Shown: positions 21,352-29,667 of the stretch, piece after piece
How positions within the stretch are numbered: position 1 is the first letter of the stretch
Layout of the letters: the number at the start of each line of letters is the position of its first letter
Assembly: GCA_902764575.1 (NCBI GenBank)
Contig: CACWWI010000001.1
Coordinates: 1-40,570, forward strand
Direction: 5' to 3'
DNA length: 40,570 nucleotides
Source of the DNA: an uncultured Coriobacteriaceae bacterium
GTDB taxonomy: Bacteria > Actinomycetota > Coriobacteriia > Coriobacteriales > Eggerthellaceae
The notes under the pieces: generated by a model
Told to the model about the DNA's origin: nothing
What the model saw: only the letters and a program-made list of their open reading frames with translations
The model's database searches: none
Translations under genes and position numbers: made by a program

Positions 21352-23370
21352 ATGGGCAGGACCCCAGAAGGCTACGAGTACGTCGCAGTTGACGGCGGCG
21401 TGCGCATTGAACGGTGCACAGTTCGTGCGCAGAGTCTCGTGATGCCCGAAAGCATCGACGGGATGCCGGTCACATCAATCGCGCCCTACGCTTTCGAGGG
21501 AAATGCAGAGATCCGCGACCTCGCATGCCCTTCCCAGGTGGTGGAAATCGGCTCGCGGGCGTTCGCCAACTGCACCGCGCTCGAGCGCATAACCTTTCCC
21601 GTCAAGCTCACGCGCTACGACAACTCGTGGGTTGCCGGTTGCGCCCGACTCGAGGAAATCGTATTGCCCGGAGGTGTCATCGACCTCGACCTCCCCTCCC
21701 CTGCGCCCTCGGGCGTGAAGCGCGTGGTCATCGGCCCGATGACGCGCACCGTGCAAATCGCGCGCACGTGGAAGACGCGTTTGATTCACGTGGGCGTTCA
21801 CCCCGAAAACCCTTGGCTGAGCTCGGATGGAACCTGCGTCTATAGCGCCGATGGCACCGAGCTCATCGTGCATGCGACGAAATCGCCAGATGTCTCGGTC
21901 GCGCAAGGCTGCCTGCGAATCGCAGCGCGCGCCTTCGAGCACGAGAAGCACCTCGAGCACGTAAACCTGCCCGAGGGCGTATGCGACATCGGCGAGCGCG
22001 CCTTCGCCGAATCGACGCTGAGCCGCTTCGAGTCGCCGGGCAGTTTGCGCAGCATCCGACGCGAGGCATTTGCCGGATGCCAGTCGCTTCGCGAGGTGGA
22101 CCTCGCCGAGGGACTGCGCGAAATCGAATCGCGCGCCTTCGCCGAATGCACGGCGTGCACGGGAATCCGCATACCCGCCAGCGTCGCGCGCGTGGAGCTC
22201 AAGGCTTTCGAAGACGCCGGGCTGCAACCTGTCGGCGACAATCCGACACTCGCCGTGAGCGCCCACAGCAAGGTCCTGTTCATCGACGAGGCGGGAGTCC
22301 TCTGCGAGCGTACCGGCGACGGCGTTGCGGTGCTCGAGGCGCTCGACGGGCAAACGAAGCGGTATCGCACGCCCAACGGCGCGGTACGCGTGAGCGCGCG
22401 GGCGTTCTTCGGCCACCCGAGCCTCGAGCAGCTGGAAATCGCAGAAGGCGTAACCTGCATAGAGCGCGAAGCGTTCATGCGCTGCGAGCACTTGCGCAGC
22501 GTGAGCCTGCCGGAAAGCCTGCAGGAACTAGGCGACCGGGCGTTCGCGACCACGGCCCTCTCCTCGTGCGCCGTGCCAGCCGGTGTAAAGCACCTGGGGG
22601 AATGCGCGCTCGCGTTCAACTTCAAGAACTGGCATCCGACGACCAATCCGCCCGAGGCGCGCGCCCATGTGACGCTGGAGCCGGGAAACAACCGCTACTT
22701 CGTGGAACGCGGCCTGCTGTACGAGCGGTACGAAGGAAGGGCGACCCGCGTCGTGCTCTACGTCGGCCCCGACATCGACCTTGCCGTAAGGCGGGACGCG
22801 CGCAGCATCGCCCCGTACGCGTTTTTCGGCGTGCAGGGCATTCGGGAGCTGCGCCTTCCCGCGGGAATCCCAACCGGCGAGGCGAGCTTCGCCATGCGAA
22901 AGCCTCCGGAGCGCATAGTGATCGAGGGAGAAGACGGCATCTCGTTCGACGCCATGCACGACTGGCGGGGCGTCTGCGCGCTGCAACGCGCGTTTGCGGG
23001 CGACGGCACCACGAACGCGAAGCTCCTATGCACGACCTTCGACGAAGAAGCGCTGAGCGCGCAGCTCGATTACGAGGCGTTCCGCTACATGCTCGCCCGC
23101 CTCGCACGCCCGGACCACCTGGAGGCGAAGGCTCGCCAAACCTTCATGCAGACGTTTCGCGAGCAGCTTTCCGATGCGTGCATCGCGTTCGCGCGCCACG
23201 ACGACAGGACGTGCGTTGACGCGCTTGCGGAGCTGGGATTGATCTCGGAAACGAACATCGACCAGGCCGTCGAGGCCGCATCCACCGCCAACAGCGCGCC
23301 GATCATGGCCCGCCTGCACGAGCTCAAACGCACGCGCTTCCGGGCTGCGGCGCAGAGCTACGAGCTGTAA
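21352..23370 (+). CDS. Cytosolic leucine-rich-repeat (BspA/LRR_5-type) protein
   Basis: A 672-residue protein with repeated LRR_5 units: IAPYAFEGNAEIRDLACP, IGSRAFANCTALERITFP, IAARAFEHEKHLEHVNLP, IGERAFAESTLSRFESP, IRREAFAGCQSLREVDLA, IESRAFAECTACTGIRIP, VSARAFFGHPSLEQLEIA, IEREAFMRCEHLRSVSLP and others, over ~residues 40-440. No signal peptide or anchor is present, although such repeats are mostly known from surface proteins. The C-terminal ~170 residues are helical and ankyrin-like in tone (LDYEAFRYMLARLARP; AELGLISETNIDQAVEAA). The next gene starts 9 bases after its stop, so LRR, VWA and MoxR proteins are made together. It probably recognises a protein partner for the ATPase pair. Function is unknown. 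Confidence 0.85.
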   Translation: MGRTPEGYEYVAVDGGVRIERCTVRAQSLVMPESIDGMPVTSIAPYAFEGNAEIRDLACPSQVVEIGSRAFANCTALERITFPVKLTRYDNSWVAGCARLEEIVLPGGVIDLDLPSPAPSGVKRVVIGPMTRTVQIARTWKTRLIHVGVHPENPWLSSDGTCVYSADGTELIVHATKSPDVSVAQGCLRIAARAFEHEKHLEHVNLPEGVCDIGERAFAESTLSRFESPGSLRSIRREAFAGCQSLREVDLAEGLREIESRAFAECTACTGIRIPASVARVELKAFEDAGLQPVGDNPTLAVSAHSKVLFIDEAGVLCERTGDGVAVLEALDGQTKRYRTPNGAVRVSARAFFGHPSLEQLEIAEGVTCIEREAFMRCEHLRSVSLPESLQELGDRAFATTALSSCAVPAGVKHLGECALAFNFKNWHPTTNPPEARAHVTLEPGNNRYFVERGLLYERYEGRATRVVLYVGPDIDLAVRRDARSIAPYAFFGVQGIRELRLPAGIPTGEASFAMRKPPERIVIEGEDGISFDAMHDWRGVCALQRAFAGDGTTNAKLLCTTFDEEALSAQLDYEAFRYMLARLARPDHLEAKARQTFMQTFREQLSDACIAFARHDDRTCVDALAELGLISETNIDQAVEAASTANSAPIMARLHELKRTRFRAAAQSYEL

Positions 23371-23379
23371 GGAGCTGCC

Positions 23380-24969
23380 ATGACCGGCAACGACGCCATG
23401 AACAGCTCCCGAACGGCACAGGCCGAATACGCCCAAGTGGAAACGCTTGCCCTCGAGATGCTCGAGCAAGCGCGCGAGACGCTCGCCATGACGTTTCGCT
23501 ACCTGGACATCGCCTTGTGGCACATGCCGTTCGAGCCGCGCGAGTTCGACGCGCCGCTCGCCACGGACGGCAGAGCGCTGTTCTTCGACCCGTACCTCGT
23601 CGTGGCGCGCTTCAGGCAATCCCCCGACGACCTCGTGCGCGACTACCTCCACACGCTGCTGCACTGCATCTTCCGCCAGCCCTTCCAGGTGGGGTTTCCC
23701 GACTGGGCGTCATGGTCGACCGCCTGCGACGTGACCTCGGAGCTAACCGCATGGGAGATGTGCAATTCACGCTTCCCGTGCGCGCACGACTTCGAACTGG
23801 AAGACCTGTACTCCACCCTGAAGCAGGCCCTCGGGGCAATCACGCCCTTGAAGGTGTACCGGGAGCTCGTCGCCTACCGGCTCGGGGCGGGACAGTCAGC
23901 CTTCGACGGCGTGCCGCGCGACGTCGTGCGGCAATGGCTCGACAACCTGGTGGTGCGCGACAGCCACGTTGCCTGGGCGCGCGGCAAACGCCACAACCTG
24001 TTTGAAAGCGGAGCATCCTCCGAGGAGGCCGCTGGCGACGAGCTGCGCGAGCAATCGAGCATCGCAGACGTCCTCGACAGCGGCGCCGAGGGCGAAGGTC
24101 AGCACGATGCGCACGACCCGGACGACGGCGGACCCGAAGACGAGGGCTCCGACGACCTGGGGTCGCGCATGAAGCGCGACCTGCGAGACGAGAGCCATTC
24201 CTCGCGCATCGAGCCGGAGAAGCAACAGGCCGCCCAAGAGGAGTGGGACGGCATCTACAAACAGATCGAGATGGACCTGCGCACGGCTGCAGTGCAGGAG
24301 GCCGAAACGCCCGGCATGCTCGTGGCGCAGATAGAGCTCGCCGCGCGCAAGCCGGTCGACTACGAGGCCTTCCTGCGCAGCTTCGCTTCGACCGAGGAGG
24401 ACCTCCGCATCAACGACGAGGAGTTCGACTACATCTTCTACATGTTCGGCTTCGACCGGTACGGCAACATGCCGCTCATCGACCCGCTCGAATACCAAGA
24501 GGTCAGCTGCGTGCGCGAGTTCGTCATAGCGATTGACACCTCCGCGTCGTGCAAGGGCGAGCTGGTCACGGGCTTCCTCACCCGCACCTGCGAGATCCTC
24601 CAGAACACGGCGCAATTCGGACGCGACGTGAACATACACATCATCCAGTGCGATGCGCGCGTGCAAGACGAGACGGTGATAACGTCGCTTGACCAGCTCG
24701 GCGCCTTCACGAGCGAGCTGCAGGTAGTGGGATTGGGCGGGACGGACTTCCGTCCCGTGTTCGACCACGTGAACGAGCTGGTGGAGAACGGCGAGTTCGA
24801 GAACTTGCGCGGGCTGATCTACTTCACCGACGGCCAGGGCACCTACCCCGAACACATGCCGCCCTACGATACCGCGTTCGTGTTCCTGGAGGAAAGCGGC
24901 ATTCCCGTCCGCGTGCCGCCCTGGGCGATGAAGGTGGTGCTCGACGAAGACGGCATACGTTCGATTTGA
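23380..24969 (+). CDS. Metallopeptidase-like/VWA protein (DUF2201 type)
   Basis: A 529-residue protein. The N-terminal half has HTLLHCIFRQP (H91, H95), an HxxxH helix like that of predicted metallopeptidase domains in DUF2201 proteins. A long acidic, disordered stretch (~210-265) follows. The C-terminal VWA domain has the metal-ion site DTSAS (D386, S388, S390) and GLGGTDFRP (the Thr/Asp part), and FTDGQGTYPE. VWA proteins of this type work with MoxR AAA+ ATPases as chaperone-like pairs that insert metals or remodel complexes. The ATPase is the next gene after 55 bases. Start 23380 follows AAGGAG. Confidence 0.85.
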   Translation: MTGNDAMNSSRTAQAEYAQVETLALEMLEQARETLAMTFRYLDIALWHMPFEPREFDAPLATDGRALFFDPYLVVARFRQSPDDLVRDYLHTLLHCIFRQPFQVGFPDWASWSTACDVTSELTAWEMCNSRFPCAHDFELEDLYSTLKQALGAITPLKVYRELVAYRLGAGQSAFDGVPRDVVRQWLDNLVVRDSHVAWARGKRHNLFESGASSEEAAGDELREQSSIADVLDSGAEGEGQHDAHDPDDGGPEDEGSDDLGSRMKRDLRDESHSSRIEPEKQQAAQEEWDGIYKQIEMDLRTAAVQEAETPGMLVAQIELAARKPVDYEAFLRSFASTEEDLRINDEEFDYIFYMFGFDRYGNMPLIDPLEYQEVSCVREFVIAIDTSASCKGELVTGFLTRTCEILQNTAQFGRDVNIHIIQCDARVQDETVITSLDQLGAFTSELQVVGLGGTDFRPVFDHVNELVENGEFENLRGLIYFTDGQGTYPEHMPPYDTAFVFLEESGIPVRVPPWAMKVVLDEDGIRSI

Positions 24970-25024
24970 CGGAGCAGCGAGAGGTTATCCCGGTAAGGCA
25001 ACGAAACGACGAAACGAGGCAATT

Positions 25025-26527
25025 GTGAACATCGCAGACGCAAAGCAACAGGTGAAAGACACCATCGAGGCATACCTTGCCGTCGACGAGGTGGGAATGC
25101 ACCGCATCGAACCCGCTGCTCAGCGGCCCTTGTTCCTCATAGGCGCCCCGGGCATCGGCAAGACGGCCATCATGAGCCAGGTCGCCGACGACCTGGGGAT
25201 CGGGCTCGTCTCGTACTCGATGACGCACCATACGCGCCAGTCGGCGCTCGGGTTGCCATTCGTCGTGGACGGCGCCCACGGATCGCTTACCTACAAAGCC
25301 ACCGAGTACACCATGAGCGAGATCATAGCGAGCATCTACGACTACATGGAGCGGACGGGGCTGGAGCGCGGCATCCTGTTCCTCGACGAGATAAACTGCG
25401 TGTCCGAGACGCTGTACCCATCGATGCTGCAGTTCCTGCAATTCAAAACGTTCGGGCGCCACCGCGTACCAGACAACTGGGTCGTCGTCTGCGCAGGAAA
25501 CCCGCCCGAGTACAACAGGTCGGCGCGCGAATTCGACATCGTGACGCTCGACCGCGTGCGCAAGATCGACGTCGAGCCCGACTTCGAATCGTGGAAATCG
25601 TACGCGCTCGGCGCGGGCGTGCATCCCAGCATCCTGTCGTTCCTCGAAATCGAGCAGGAGTGCTTCTACTCCGTCGAGTCGACGCCGACGGGCAAGCGGT
25701 TCGTCAGCGCGCGCGGATGGACCGACCTATCCCGCACGATCACGACCCTCGAGGAGATGGGCAAGACCGTGGACATCGGGCTGATCGGCCAGTTCGTGCA
25801 AGAATCGAGCATCGCCGAGCGCTTCGCCGTCTACTACGAGCTGTTCAGCAAGTACCGCTCCGACTACCAGGTCGGCGCCATCCTCAAGGGCTCGTGGCAG
25901 GACGACGTGGTCGAACGCGCCCAGCGCGCCGCATTCGACGAGCGGCTCGCCGTGCTCAACCTCATACTCGACGCCGTCGAGACCCAGGCTTCGCAGGCCC
26001 TCGAACGCGAAGCCGTCATCGTGGAGGTGCGCGACGCGCTGCGGCAGGCGAAGCCCCGCATCGTGGACGGAGAGCCGGCGAGCGCCGTCATCGACGAACT
26101 CGTGGGCGAACTGGCGGGTGAGCTCGAGACGCGCATGTCTTCGGGCACGGTCCCCGCTGAAGAGGTTCGCCTGCGCAAGCTGGCCATCGAGCAGCTGAGG
26201 TCGCTTCAGCACGAGAGCGCGGGCGCAGGAGGCGGCATGCCTGCGTTCAGCACGATCAGCGATGCGTACACACGGCTCGTCGACGACATGCGCCAGTTCG
26301 CCGCCGATACGTCAACCCAGCTCGAGAACGCGTTCTCCTTCATCGCGCAGACGTTCGGCAACGAACGTGAGATGCTCGTGTTCGTTGCGGATTTGAGCAC
26401 GCGGCCGACTACCATGCGCTTCGTCAACGCGTTCGGTAGCGACGGCTACGCAGCCTACAGCGAGCGGCTCGCCGTGCAGGAACGCCGAAACGACCTCCTC
26501 GACCGCGCGAACGAGCTCGCATTGTAA
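25025..26527 (+). CDS. MoxR-type AAA+ ATPase
   Basis: A 500-residue ATPase. Walker A is GAPGIGKTA (40-48), Walker B ILFLDEIN (117-124), and sensor-1 is in VVVCAGNPPEYN (~160). The AAA+ core is followed by a helical C-terminal part of ~220 residues, which is longer than usual for MoxR (about 320-350 residues). That part carries coiled segments. A GTG start at 25025 is likely, with a weak purine run upstream. It closes the three-gene operon with the LRR and VWA proteins. The pairing with a VWA gene is typical of MoxR systems, but the specific target is unknown. Confidence 0.85.
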   Translation: MNIADAKQQVKDTIEAYLAVDEVGMHRIEPAAQRPLFLIGAPGIGKTAIMSQVADDLGIGLVSYSMTHHTRQSALGLPFVVDGAHGSLTYKATEYTMSEIIASIYDYMERTGLERGILFLDEINCVSETLYPSMLQFLQFKTFGRHRVPDNWVVVCAGNPPEYNRSAREFDIVTLDRVRKIDVEPDFESWKSYALGAGVHPSILSFLEIEQECFYSVESTPTGKRFVSARGWTDLSRTITTLEEMGKTVDIGLIGQFVQESSIAERFAVYYELFSKYRSDYQVGAILKGSWQDDVVERAQRAAFDERLAVLNLILDAVETQASQALEREAVIVEVRDALRQAKPRIVDGEPASAVIDELVGELAGELETRMSSGTVPAEEVRLRKLAIEQLRSLQHESAGAGGGMPAFSTISDAYTRLVDDMRQFAADTSTQLENAFSFIAQTFGNEREMLVFVADLSTRPTTMRFVNAFGSDGYAAYSERLAVQERRNDLLDRANELAL

Positions 26528-27897: not shown

Positions 27898-29667
27898 TTA
27901 GCTTGAGCTCTCCTCGCGGTTTTCCGAAAGGGCGATGGCCGCCTCGATATCCTCGCGCGTTATGGCGACGAGAGCTTCCCGGGTGAGCTCCTTCTCGTCT
28001 GCGAGCCGGTTCGCCTGGCAGGTGATCGCGTTCTCGAAGAAGTTGCGCACCGTGCGCCCATTCGCGAAGCTCGGGTCGTGGCGCTCGACGAGCTCTTCGA
28101 AATACTTCCCCGCCGCCTCGCAAGCTTCATCGCTCGGCTCCATGCTGTTCTTCGAGCATTGGCTCTTGAAGATCTCCAGCAACTCGTCGGGCGTGAAGTC
28201 CTCGAACATGATGAACTTGTTGAAGCGGCTACGCAGGCCCGGGTTCGAGTCGAGGAATTCCTGCATGGGCTCGGTGTAGCCCGCAACGATGACCACCAGG
28301 TCGTCGCGATGGTCCTCCATGCCCTTGAGCAGGGTGTCGATCGCCTCCTGCCCGAAATCGGATTCGCCGCGATGCACGCTCAGGGCATACGCCTCGTCGA
28401 TGAACAGCACGCCCCCGAGCGCCTTCTCGATGACCTCGGCCGTCTTCAGGGCCGTCTGCCCCACGTAGCCGGCAACGAGGCCCGAGCGGTCCACTTCGAC
28501 CAGATGGCCCTTCGAGAGGATGTCGAGCTTCTTGTAGAAGCGCGAGACCAAGCGCGCCACGGTGGTTTTCCCCGTGCCCGGGTTGCCATAGAACACCAGG
28601 TGGAGCGAGAGCTTGTTCTGCTTGATGCCATGTTCCTCGCGCGCCTTCTGGATGCGGGCCAGGTTTACGAGCGACGTTATCTCCTTTTTCACCTGCTTCA
28701 TGCCGGTAAGGGAGTTGAGCTCCTCGAGCAGCTCTTCGAGTGTGGCCTCGTCTTCGGGCTCCTCGGCTTCTTCCTCGGCGGCTTTTGCCTTGCCGGCGGC
28801 ATCTTCCCCGGCGTCCTTCGCGGCCGTCCCGGTGATGCCGTAGCTCGGCGAGAGCGCGAGCGTCGAGATGCGCGGTTTGCCGCCCCATGAGTCGAGCTTA
28901 TCCACGAGCAGTTCCTGAATGGCCGTCATGAGGGACGTGAAACGGGAGGTCTCGTCGGCTTCCATGTCGCCATCGCAGATGAGTATCTCCTCGCACAGCG
29001 TCTTGAGGGTTTTCAACAGAAGCTCTGCGCAGCTATCGTCGGGATTCCCCGTTTCGGCATACCGTTCGTTGTCGTAGACGATGGCGGCGACGAACGATTT
29101 CGGGGGCACGTTGAAAAAGTCCCCTTTCGCGTCCCCGCTCGACGCGGCGCATGCGCGCACCGTCGCTTCGTCGAGCTCCAACCCGAGCGCGCTGTTGATG
29201 AGCGCGATCTCCTCGGGCGCCACCTTCCCGTCCAAAACCGCCATGCGGCACGCAACCGTTTTCAGGTCCAGGTCGAACTGCTCGCCGATGCTGCGGCCCA
29301 GGTACTCGCGCATCTGGTTGCCCTGCTCGGCATCGAGTTCGTCGTAACGCTTCCCATAGGCCCGAATCTGTGCGAACGACGTCGCCATCACCTCGCCGAC
29401 CGCATGCCAAGCCGCCCTGTTCAAGCCCGAAGTCAGGCCCAAGGCGCTTTCGGTGACGTCATCGACGGCGTCTTTCCAGGTGCGTGCGTCGGGCGTAGTG
29501 CGTTGCGCACCGTCAGAAGCACTTGGAGCGGCGGTTTTCAGCCAATCGTCAATTGGGTCGAGGTACTCGAACAGCTTCGAGGACGGATAGCTCTTCCCGC
29601 ACGACGTGCACGTGAACCGATCTGCTTGGAAGTCGAGGGAGCTGCTCCCGCATCCAGGGCACTTCAT
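27898..29667 (-). CDS. Zinc-ribbon/TerB-like/CbxX-type AAA+ fusion protein
   Basis: A 589-residue protein with three parts. Residues 1-30 are a zinc ribbon (CPGCGS and CTSCG). Residues ~90-250 carry two TerB-like acidic metal-site motifs (DGKVAPEE at 146 and DGDMEADE at 232), each in a helical repeat. From ~315 on is a CbxX/CfqX AAA+ domain: MKQVKKEITSLVNLARIQ, Walker A GNPGTGKTT (361-369), pore loop GYVGQ (400-404), Walker B LFIDEAY (421-427), an arginine-finger segment NPGLRSRF (475-482). CbxX ATPases act in Rubisco activation, spore and type VII secretion and stress systems. The TerB part links it to tellurite/stress-type systems. Start 29667 is at the first Met of the zinc ribbon. Confidence 0.85.
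   Translation of the reverse strand: MKCPGCGSSSLDFQADRFTCTSCGKSYPSSKLFEYLDPIDDWLKTAAPSASDGAQRTTPDARTWKDAVDDVTESALGLTSGLNRAAWHAVGEVMATSFAQIRAYGKRYDELDAEQGNQMREYLGRSIGEQFDLDLKTVACRMAVLDGKVAPEEIALINSALGLELDEATVRACAASSGDAKGDFFNVPPKSFVAAIVYDNERYAETGNPDDSCAELLLKTLKTLCEEILICDGDMEADETSRFTSLMTAIQELLVDKLDSWGGKPRISTLALSPSYGITGTAAKDAGEDAAGKAKAAEEEAEEPEDEATLEELLEELNSLTGMKQVKKEITSLVNLARIQKAREEHGIKQNKLSLHLVFYGNPGTGKTTVARLVSRFYKKLDILSKGHLVEVDRSGLVAGYVGQTALKTAEVIEKALGGVLFIDEAYALSVHRGESDFGQEAIDTLLKGMEDHRDDLVVIVAGYTEPMQEFLDSNPGLRSRFNKFIMFEDFTPDELLEIFKSQCSKNSMEPSDEACEAAGKYFEELVERHDPSFANGRTVRNFFENAITCQANRLADEKELTREALVAITREDIEAAIALSENREESSS

Follow-up and report, generated by a model that had tools for sequence, protein, structure and literature searches.

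A conserved LRR-VWA-MoxR gene trio of gut Coriobacteriia and Clostridia and its possible role as a client-specific protein-maturation chaperone

Why should a leucine-rich-repeat (LRR) protein be encoded directly ahead of a MoxR-type ATPase and its von Willebrand factor A (VWA) partner? The question is raised by a stretch of 40,570 nucleotides from an uncultured Coriobacteriaceae bacterium (GTDB family Eggerthellaceae; contig CACWWI010000001.1 of GenBank assembly GCA_902764575.1), here called the window at its full length, in which the three genes follow one another on the forward strand. The LRR-VWA-MoxR trio is a real conserved unit, which recurs in hundreds of gut anaerobes with its genes arranged in differing orders. 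We lean toward the reading that the three genes encode a single ATP-driven protein-remodeling (maturation) chaperone, in which the LRR protein would be the adaptor that chooses the client and docks by its C-terminal tail. The observations on which this reading is based are the conserved three-gene unit, the intact Walker motifs and metal ion-dependent adhesion site (MIDAS), the loss of a protease glutamate, a conserved tail, and congruent inheritance.

Linkage and recurrence of the three genes

Linkage was recounted in six frames, using only loci with uncut flanks and a distance limit of 6 kb from the MoxR homolog. A match to the LRR/third-component profile was present at all 49 such loci in Coriobacteriia and at 30 of 32 in Clostridia (79/81 in total), compared with 2/274 and 5/154 matches among genes further from MoxR; the linkage is therefore not due to chance. 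The true LRR count is slightly lower than 79/81, because at least one of the Clostridia profile matches is an ankyrin protein (at L133, with L150 a similar case among the cut loci). The VWA gene lies near MoxR at 73/76 loci in Coriobacteriia and 53/56 in Clostridia. The prevailing gene order is LRR-VWA-MoxR in Coriobacteriia and VWA-MoxR-LRR or VWA-LRR-MoxR in Clostridia, and the persistence of linkage through these rearrangements points to a joint function more than to inherited synteny. The LRR ortholog in the congener G007, 71% identical to the window protein, was located by tblastn immediately upstream of VWA. The genome neighborhood survey that the earlier note on this DNA had proposed thus found the LRR gene linked to the pair well beyond the window.

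A wider search for the MoxR family with two sequence patterns, one of them YS[MI]THHTR, gave at least 585 candidate loci, of which 80 were listed, and these included Clostridia; the cassette is also present in a cultured relative, Gordonibacter sp. 28C. MoxR homologs were present in 33 of the 61 genomes of relatives, with up to seven matches in one draft genome, and the phylum at large, sampled with 296 genomes, contained seven positives, all from the same family. Of 70 operon-mates from 43 Clostridia loci, 42 matched LRR_5 in a Pfam scan, 4 matched DUF4132, and 2 matched ankyrin repeats. Third components with ankyrin repeats or DUF4132, which replace or join the LRR, are found in Clostridia at L133:8553-10199, L150:4543-6183, L154:4142-5500, and L138:4461-6911.

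The genes of the window cassette and the parts of its MoxR protein are as follows (aa, amino acids).

21352..23370, + strand: LRR protein, 672 aa; first gene and proposed client-recognition adaptor
23380..24969, + strand: VWA/DUF2201 protein, 529 aa, with a helical metallopeptidase-like N-domain, an acidic disordered linker, and a VWA domain
25025..26527, + strand: MoxR-clade AAA+ ATPase, 500 aa, GTG start
25223..25258, + strand: MoxR family signature THHTRQSALGLP, near-invariant among homologs
25952..26524, + strand: MoxR C-terminal extension, aa 310-500, variable apart from the FGxxxEMLVF region

All three open reading frames lie on one strand, as the earlier note had proposed in calling them an operon, with gaps of 9 bp (LRR/VWA) and 55 bp (VWA/MoxR). 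The flanking genes, encoding a GGDEF/GAF protein and a flavodoxin, run the opposite way, so that the operon consists of these three genes alone. Promoter and terminator scans gave results near chance level. The Pfam assignments are LRR_5 for the first protein (1.7e-52), the DUF2201 VWA-like domain for the second (4.8e-12), and AAA_5 for the third (3.7e-07). The MoxR protein has the core motifs of its clade (Walker A GAPGIGKT, Walker B LFLDEIN, and sensor-1 N159), and its gene adjoins a VWA gene with an intact MIDAS, as in other MoxR-VWA pairs. Its long C-terminal extension, which had been singled out from the sequence, is indeed present outside the AAA+ core (residues ~310 to 500) but is not peculiar to the window, being common to the whole family. 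The 672-residue first protein lacks a signal peptide, a transmembrane segment, and an N-terminal hydrophobic segment, and to judge from this it is cytosolic, as had been supposed.

A second, diverged cassette with the same gene order is present on contig 3 of the same genome (L013), and its MoxR is 54% identical to that of the window. In the MoxR tree, the window copy clusters only with two congeners (100/100) and apart from the contig-3 copy, which indicates that the two cassettes do not stem from a recent duplication. The contig-3 MoxR (L013:8858-11290) carries a fused C-terminal class I methyltransferase-like domain, similar to ArsM, at aa ~609 to 810. MoxR proteins longer than 700 aa account for 24 of the 65 Coriobacteriia MoxR rows in the tree and are scattered rather than forming a single clade. 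Stand-alone proteins of ~221 to 224 aa that match only MoxR residues ~280 to 480 are found at L094:4228-4893, L095:7625-8290, and L096:14856-15530; their genes lie close to another cassette's LRR gene. The window itself contains a second AAA protein at 27898-29667 on the minus strand, with AAA and AAA_lid_6 domains and an N-terminal zinc ribbon, that is weakly similar to the defense-associated ATPase IetA (PADLOC, 3.9e-13).

The LRR tail and the MIDAS as candidate docking partners

The features relevant to docking are listed here.

21373..22950, + strand: LRR beta-solenoid, aa 8-533 (AlphaFold2 secondary structure)
22963..23334, + strand: helical domain near the C terminus of the LRR protein, aa 538-661, which is conserved along with the cassette
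23353..23367, + strand: C-terminal tail of the LRR protein, last five residues QSYEL-COOH, proposed docking peptide; predicted local distance difference test (pLDDT) score below 50 for aa 668-672
23986..24213, + strand: acidic disordered linker of the VWA protein, aa 203-278, 30% D/E
24535..24831, + strand: MIDAS of the VWA protein, D386-x-S388-x-S390, T455, and D484, invariant in 69/69 homologs

The AlphaFold2 model of the LRR protein (pLDDT 91) consists of the solenoid (8-533) and the helical domain (538-661), followed by a tail that is disordered. Its LRR_5 repeats and solenoid fold are those of a BspA-type LRR protein, and its best PDB fold matches are the bacterial LRR proteins 4gt6, 4cp6, 4h09, and 4fs7. 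In cassette LRR proteins generally, the conserved helical domain is followed by a linker of variable length and then by a short end motif of the approximate form acidic-[FY]-x-[LI]-COOH, typically DFDL or DYDL but also RFAL, and SYEL in the window protein. The form [FY]x[LI]-COOH ends 39/45 cassette LRR proteins of Coriobacteriia against 14/535 other nearby proteins (Fisher 2e-42) and 16/53 third components of Clostridia against 4/379 other proteins (Fisher 1e-12), with the qualification that these counts come from related sequences, so that the p-values are not independent and overstate the significance. This conserved C-terminal tail of the LRR proteins is a new observation. Across the whole of the same genome, the stricter pattern D[FY]x[LIF]-stop, which does not include the window's SYEL, was found only in the LRR genes of contigs 3 and 16; a third match ends in TGG instead of a stop. 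The contig-16 protein (L014:6067-8256) is an orphan that has the cassette-type C-terminal domain and a DFDL tail with no adjoining VWA or MoxR gene, and further orphan LRR relatives at L204 to L207 lack an adjacent motor while keeping the tail. Tails of this kind, such as DMWEL and DAFAL, also end some of the Clostridia ankyrin or DUF4132 third components. A short LRR_5 protein is encoded on contig 110 of the same genome (L015:4620-6885), 1 bp after a gene resembling that of the signal-recognition-particle GTPase Ffh.

The VWA protein was aligned with its relatives, 69 homologs in all, and its model (pLDDT 81.5) shows a VWA fold joined to a helical N-domain by the disordered acidic linker. A fold search, which mainly covered the VWA domain, matched integrin I/VWA domains and the MDN1 MIDAS; a sequence search against solved structures found no relative. 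The MIDAS of NorD binds an acidic patch of its target and couples that target to the NorQ ring (PMC9976466), and the ligand of the Rea1 MIDAS is a Glu in Rsa4 or Ytm1 (PMC6624252). By analogy with these two cases, we propose the LRR tail as the ligand of the VWA protein.

We hypothesize that the MoxR protein would form an AAA+ ring motor and that the VWA protein would act as the co-chaperone coupling this motor to the client, its N-domain being a degenerate metallopeptidase that would retain a metal-binding site. The solenoid of the LRR protein would bind a particular client, and its flexible tail would dock on the VWA protein; the most plausible site is the metal of the MIDAS, which is expected to take an acidic ligand. 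Cycles of ATP hydrolysis could subsequently put strain on the client or refold it, so as to permit, for instance, cofactor insertion or assembly, and paralogous cassettes and orphan LRR proteins may serve different clients. The formation of the complex, the docking of the tail at the MIDAS, the chaperone outcome, and the identity of the client are what we infer. An LRR recognizer and an ATPase motor in one functional unit, as suggested from the start, is the most economical reading of the co-inheritance, the conserved tail, and the MoxR-VWA precedents. Some cassettes in both phyla adjoin molybdoenzyme genes (26 loci of the bis-molybdopterin guanine dinucleotide type, partly duplicate records, and 4 of the xanthine-dehydrogenase type), and others have FKBP/SlyD or trigger-factor-like genes as neighbors; such neighbors fit a maturation role and recall the CoxD/CoxE pair.

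Several points weigh against this interpretation, in addition to the non-independence of the tail counts. The strict tail motif occurs in just the 16/53 Clostridia third components, and some tails (RFAL, DFSL) have no acid at the penultimate position, for which reason the tail may bind a hydrophobic pocket instead of the MIDAS. Distances for LRR, VWA, and MoxR are congruent (rho ~0.9; partial VWA-LRR correlation given MoxR, 0.49), but this is weak evidence for contact between the three proteins because genes in one operon are co-inherited anyway. Proximity to molybdoenzyme genes is likewise weak evidence, since these enzymes are probably numerous in these genomes, and neither a molybdoenzyme gene nor a chaperone gene is linked to the cassette of the window.

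It is also possible, though we think it unlikely, that the LRR protein is the client, which the MoxR-VWA pair folds, assembles, or switches and which then acts elsewhere. The would-be VWA ligand sits on the LRR protein, tailed orphan paralogs exist with no adjoining motor, and in known pairs the MIDAS ligand belongs to the target (PMC9976466). However, the replacement of the recognition domain by ankyrin repeats or DUF4132 at some loci better suits an exchangeable adaptor, although this is not decisive.

Known MoxR-VWA systems and the question of defense

The adaptor-guided chaperone that we favor has partial parallels among described systems. NorQ/NorD likewise combines a MoxR protein with a VWA protein made up of an N-domain, a disordered linker, and a C-terminal MIDAS-bearing VWA domain (PMC9976466), but it is dedicated to nitric oxide reductase and has no described LRR third gene. 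CoxD/CoxE, a MoxR-type AAA+ protein with a VWA partner, matures a molybdenum enzyme, and some relatives of the window family stand beside molybdoenzyme genes (PMC4240915); the partner of CoxE is, however, CoxF rather than an LRR protein, and the window cassette has no such neighbor. RavA/ViaA of Escherichia coli resembles the cassette in pairing a MoxR AAA+ protein that has a C-terminal extension with a VWA protein, but no LRR gene adjoins it, and only the P-loop/core and MIDAS regions align (hhalign probabilities of 65% and 38%), without full-length similarity. The yeh operon of E. coli (YehI, DUF4132; YehL, MoxR; YehP, VWA) is also a cluster of MoxR, VWA, and third component, and DUF4132 recurs as a third component at some Clostridia loci, but the window proteins show no specific similarity to YehL/YehP beyond the P-loop and MIDAS. 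A close kinship with either E. coli system was rejected on these alignments. Among PDB sequences, the MoxR profile best matches midasin/Rea1, in the P-loop region only (6or5, E value of 7e-08); midasin/Rea1 has a D/E-rich linker ahead of a MIDAS whose ligand is acidic (PMC6624252), and the MDN1 MIDAS was among the fold matches noted above. Midasin differs in being a single giant chain of six AAA domains that binds ligands with ubiquitin-like domains and serves ribosome assembly.

The three-part organization invites comparison with the MoxR-vWA ternary conflict systems, which also combine a MoxR AAA+ protein, a vWA protein, mostly with an intact MIDAS, and a system-specific third component in one operon (PMC7159879). 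An anti-phage role, in which the LRR protein would detect an invader and the MoxR-VWA pair would impose a threshold and set off an effector, would also suit the multiple copies (as many as 7 matches per draft genome) and the patchy presence (33/61 relatives) of the cassette; we nevertheless consider it improbable. Four third components have been described for the conflict systems, VMAP, iSTAND, FtsH, and a beta-propeller (PMC7159879, PMC8195603), whereas that of the window is a BspA-type LRR protein (LRR_5). The VWA protein has no effector domain (only the DUF2201_N and VWA matches, its N-domain being metallopeptidase-like), nor is there one elsewhere in the cassette. The window family occurs in gut Coriobacteriia and Clostridia and not, like the conflict systems, in multicellular prokaryotes; the hosts of the cassette are not known as multicellular. 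The window MoxR matches bpMoxR only below the cutoff (21.9 versus 27 bits). In the text of PMC7159879, LRR appears once, in a reference title fragment (LRRK2). An LRR-type MoxR-VWA ternary system was not found in the literature searched, which did not cover most subscription journals, and the papers there that join MoxR, VWA, operon, and leucine-rich repeat concern other systems.

The earlier note had also suggested a protein-remodeling or defense complex and had proposed a check for association with defense islands; our searches did not bear out a link to defense. A PADLOC scan of the cassette (PADLOC-DB 2023) gave no specific match, only weak P-loop matches, and a scan of 230 neighbors gave scattered matches (methyltransferase, ABC-type ATPases) without enrichment of defense genes; the defense reading was set aside on these results. 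No NCBIfam model matched the MoxR and VWA pair above the cutoff. Annotated plasmids and IMG/VR viral contigs contained no full-length relatives, and the mobile-element reading was rejected on this ground. Full-length MoxR homologs (41 to 45% identity) are present on six unannotated “Bacteriophage sp.” fecal contigs (MT837993, MT837836, MT835935, MT837937, MT836813, and MT838754), which are probably bacterial contigs.

The window proteins and their G007 orthologs are 71% (LRR), 79% (VWA), and 82% (MoxR) identical, and the pairwise ratios of nonsynonymous to synonymous substitution rates (dN/dS) are ~0.19, ~0.17, and ~0.13, respectively, values that are approximate given a dS of 0.85 to 1.1. By these estimates, the LRR gene is the fastest changing of the three yet evolves under purifying selection, in contrast to a sensor in an arms race; a diversifying LRR was rejected on these values. 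Altogether, the cassette has more the look of a maturation chaperone for specific client proteins than of a phage defense system.

The probable metal site of the VWA protein and the possible exchange of adaptors

Two further features lie in the N-domain of the VWA protein.

23650..23664, + strand: HxxxH of the VWA protein (H91-TLL-H95), HExxH-like without the catalytic Glu (69-sequence alignment)
23728..23742, + strand: DxxxE of the VWA protein (D117, E121), located on the following helix and proposed to supply the other metal ligands (alignment and model)

The HxxxH segment had been read as a protease or a metal site, and the alignment speaks for the second of these and does not support the first. 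H91, H95, D117, and E121, which include an H,H,D metal-ligand pattern, are each kept in 68/69 homologs and lie on neighboring helices (82-97 and 109-128) in the model. Glu92, the glutamate of an HExxH peptidase motif, is missing in 68/69, including the window protein. With the ligands kept and this residue lost, the site resembles one that binds metal but lacks the usual catalytic base, and the N-domain is probably metal binding rather than a protease. The sole homolog in the set with HExxH (HEVLH) plus the D-xxx-E pair is L153:5698-7008. Distant N-domain relatives on viral contigs (L187 and L188) were rejected as family members, since they belong to another family, and served only as HExxH comparators. 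That the N-domain is a working metallopeptidase cleaving clients brought by the LRR protein, in a regulated protease or unfoldase, is very improbable: the four ligand residues and the DUF2201_N similarity (0.0007; 19.7 bits, below the 23.2-bit Pfam cutoff) would suit it, but the glutamate is absent from all but one homolog, while L187 and L188 retain HELLH and HEVLH.

The choice of clients is understood for only a few MoxR-VWA pairs, and the present family, widespread with at least 585 candidate loci, comes with what would be a dedicated recognition protein. A short portable tail and an LRR domain make client choice directly testable. Tentatively, and with clearly less confidence than for the LRR adaptor itself, we raise the possibility of a single MoxR-VWA core with interchangeable repeat-protein adaptors (LRR, ankyrin, or DUF4132) that share a C-terminal docking peptide, with orphan adaptors acting in trans. 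If this is true, bacteria would have a plug-in code of adaptors for their MoxR motors.

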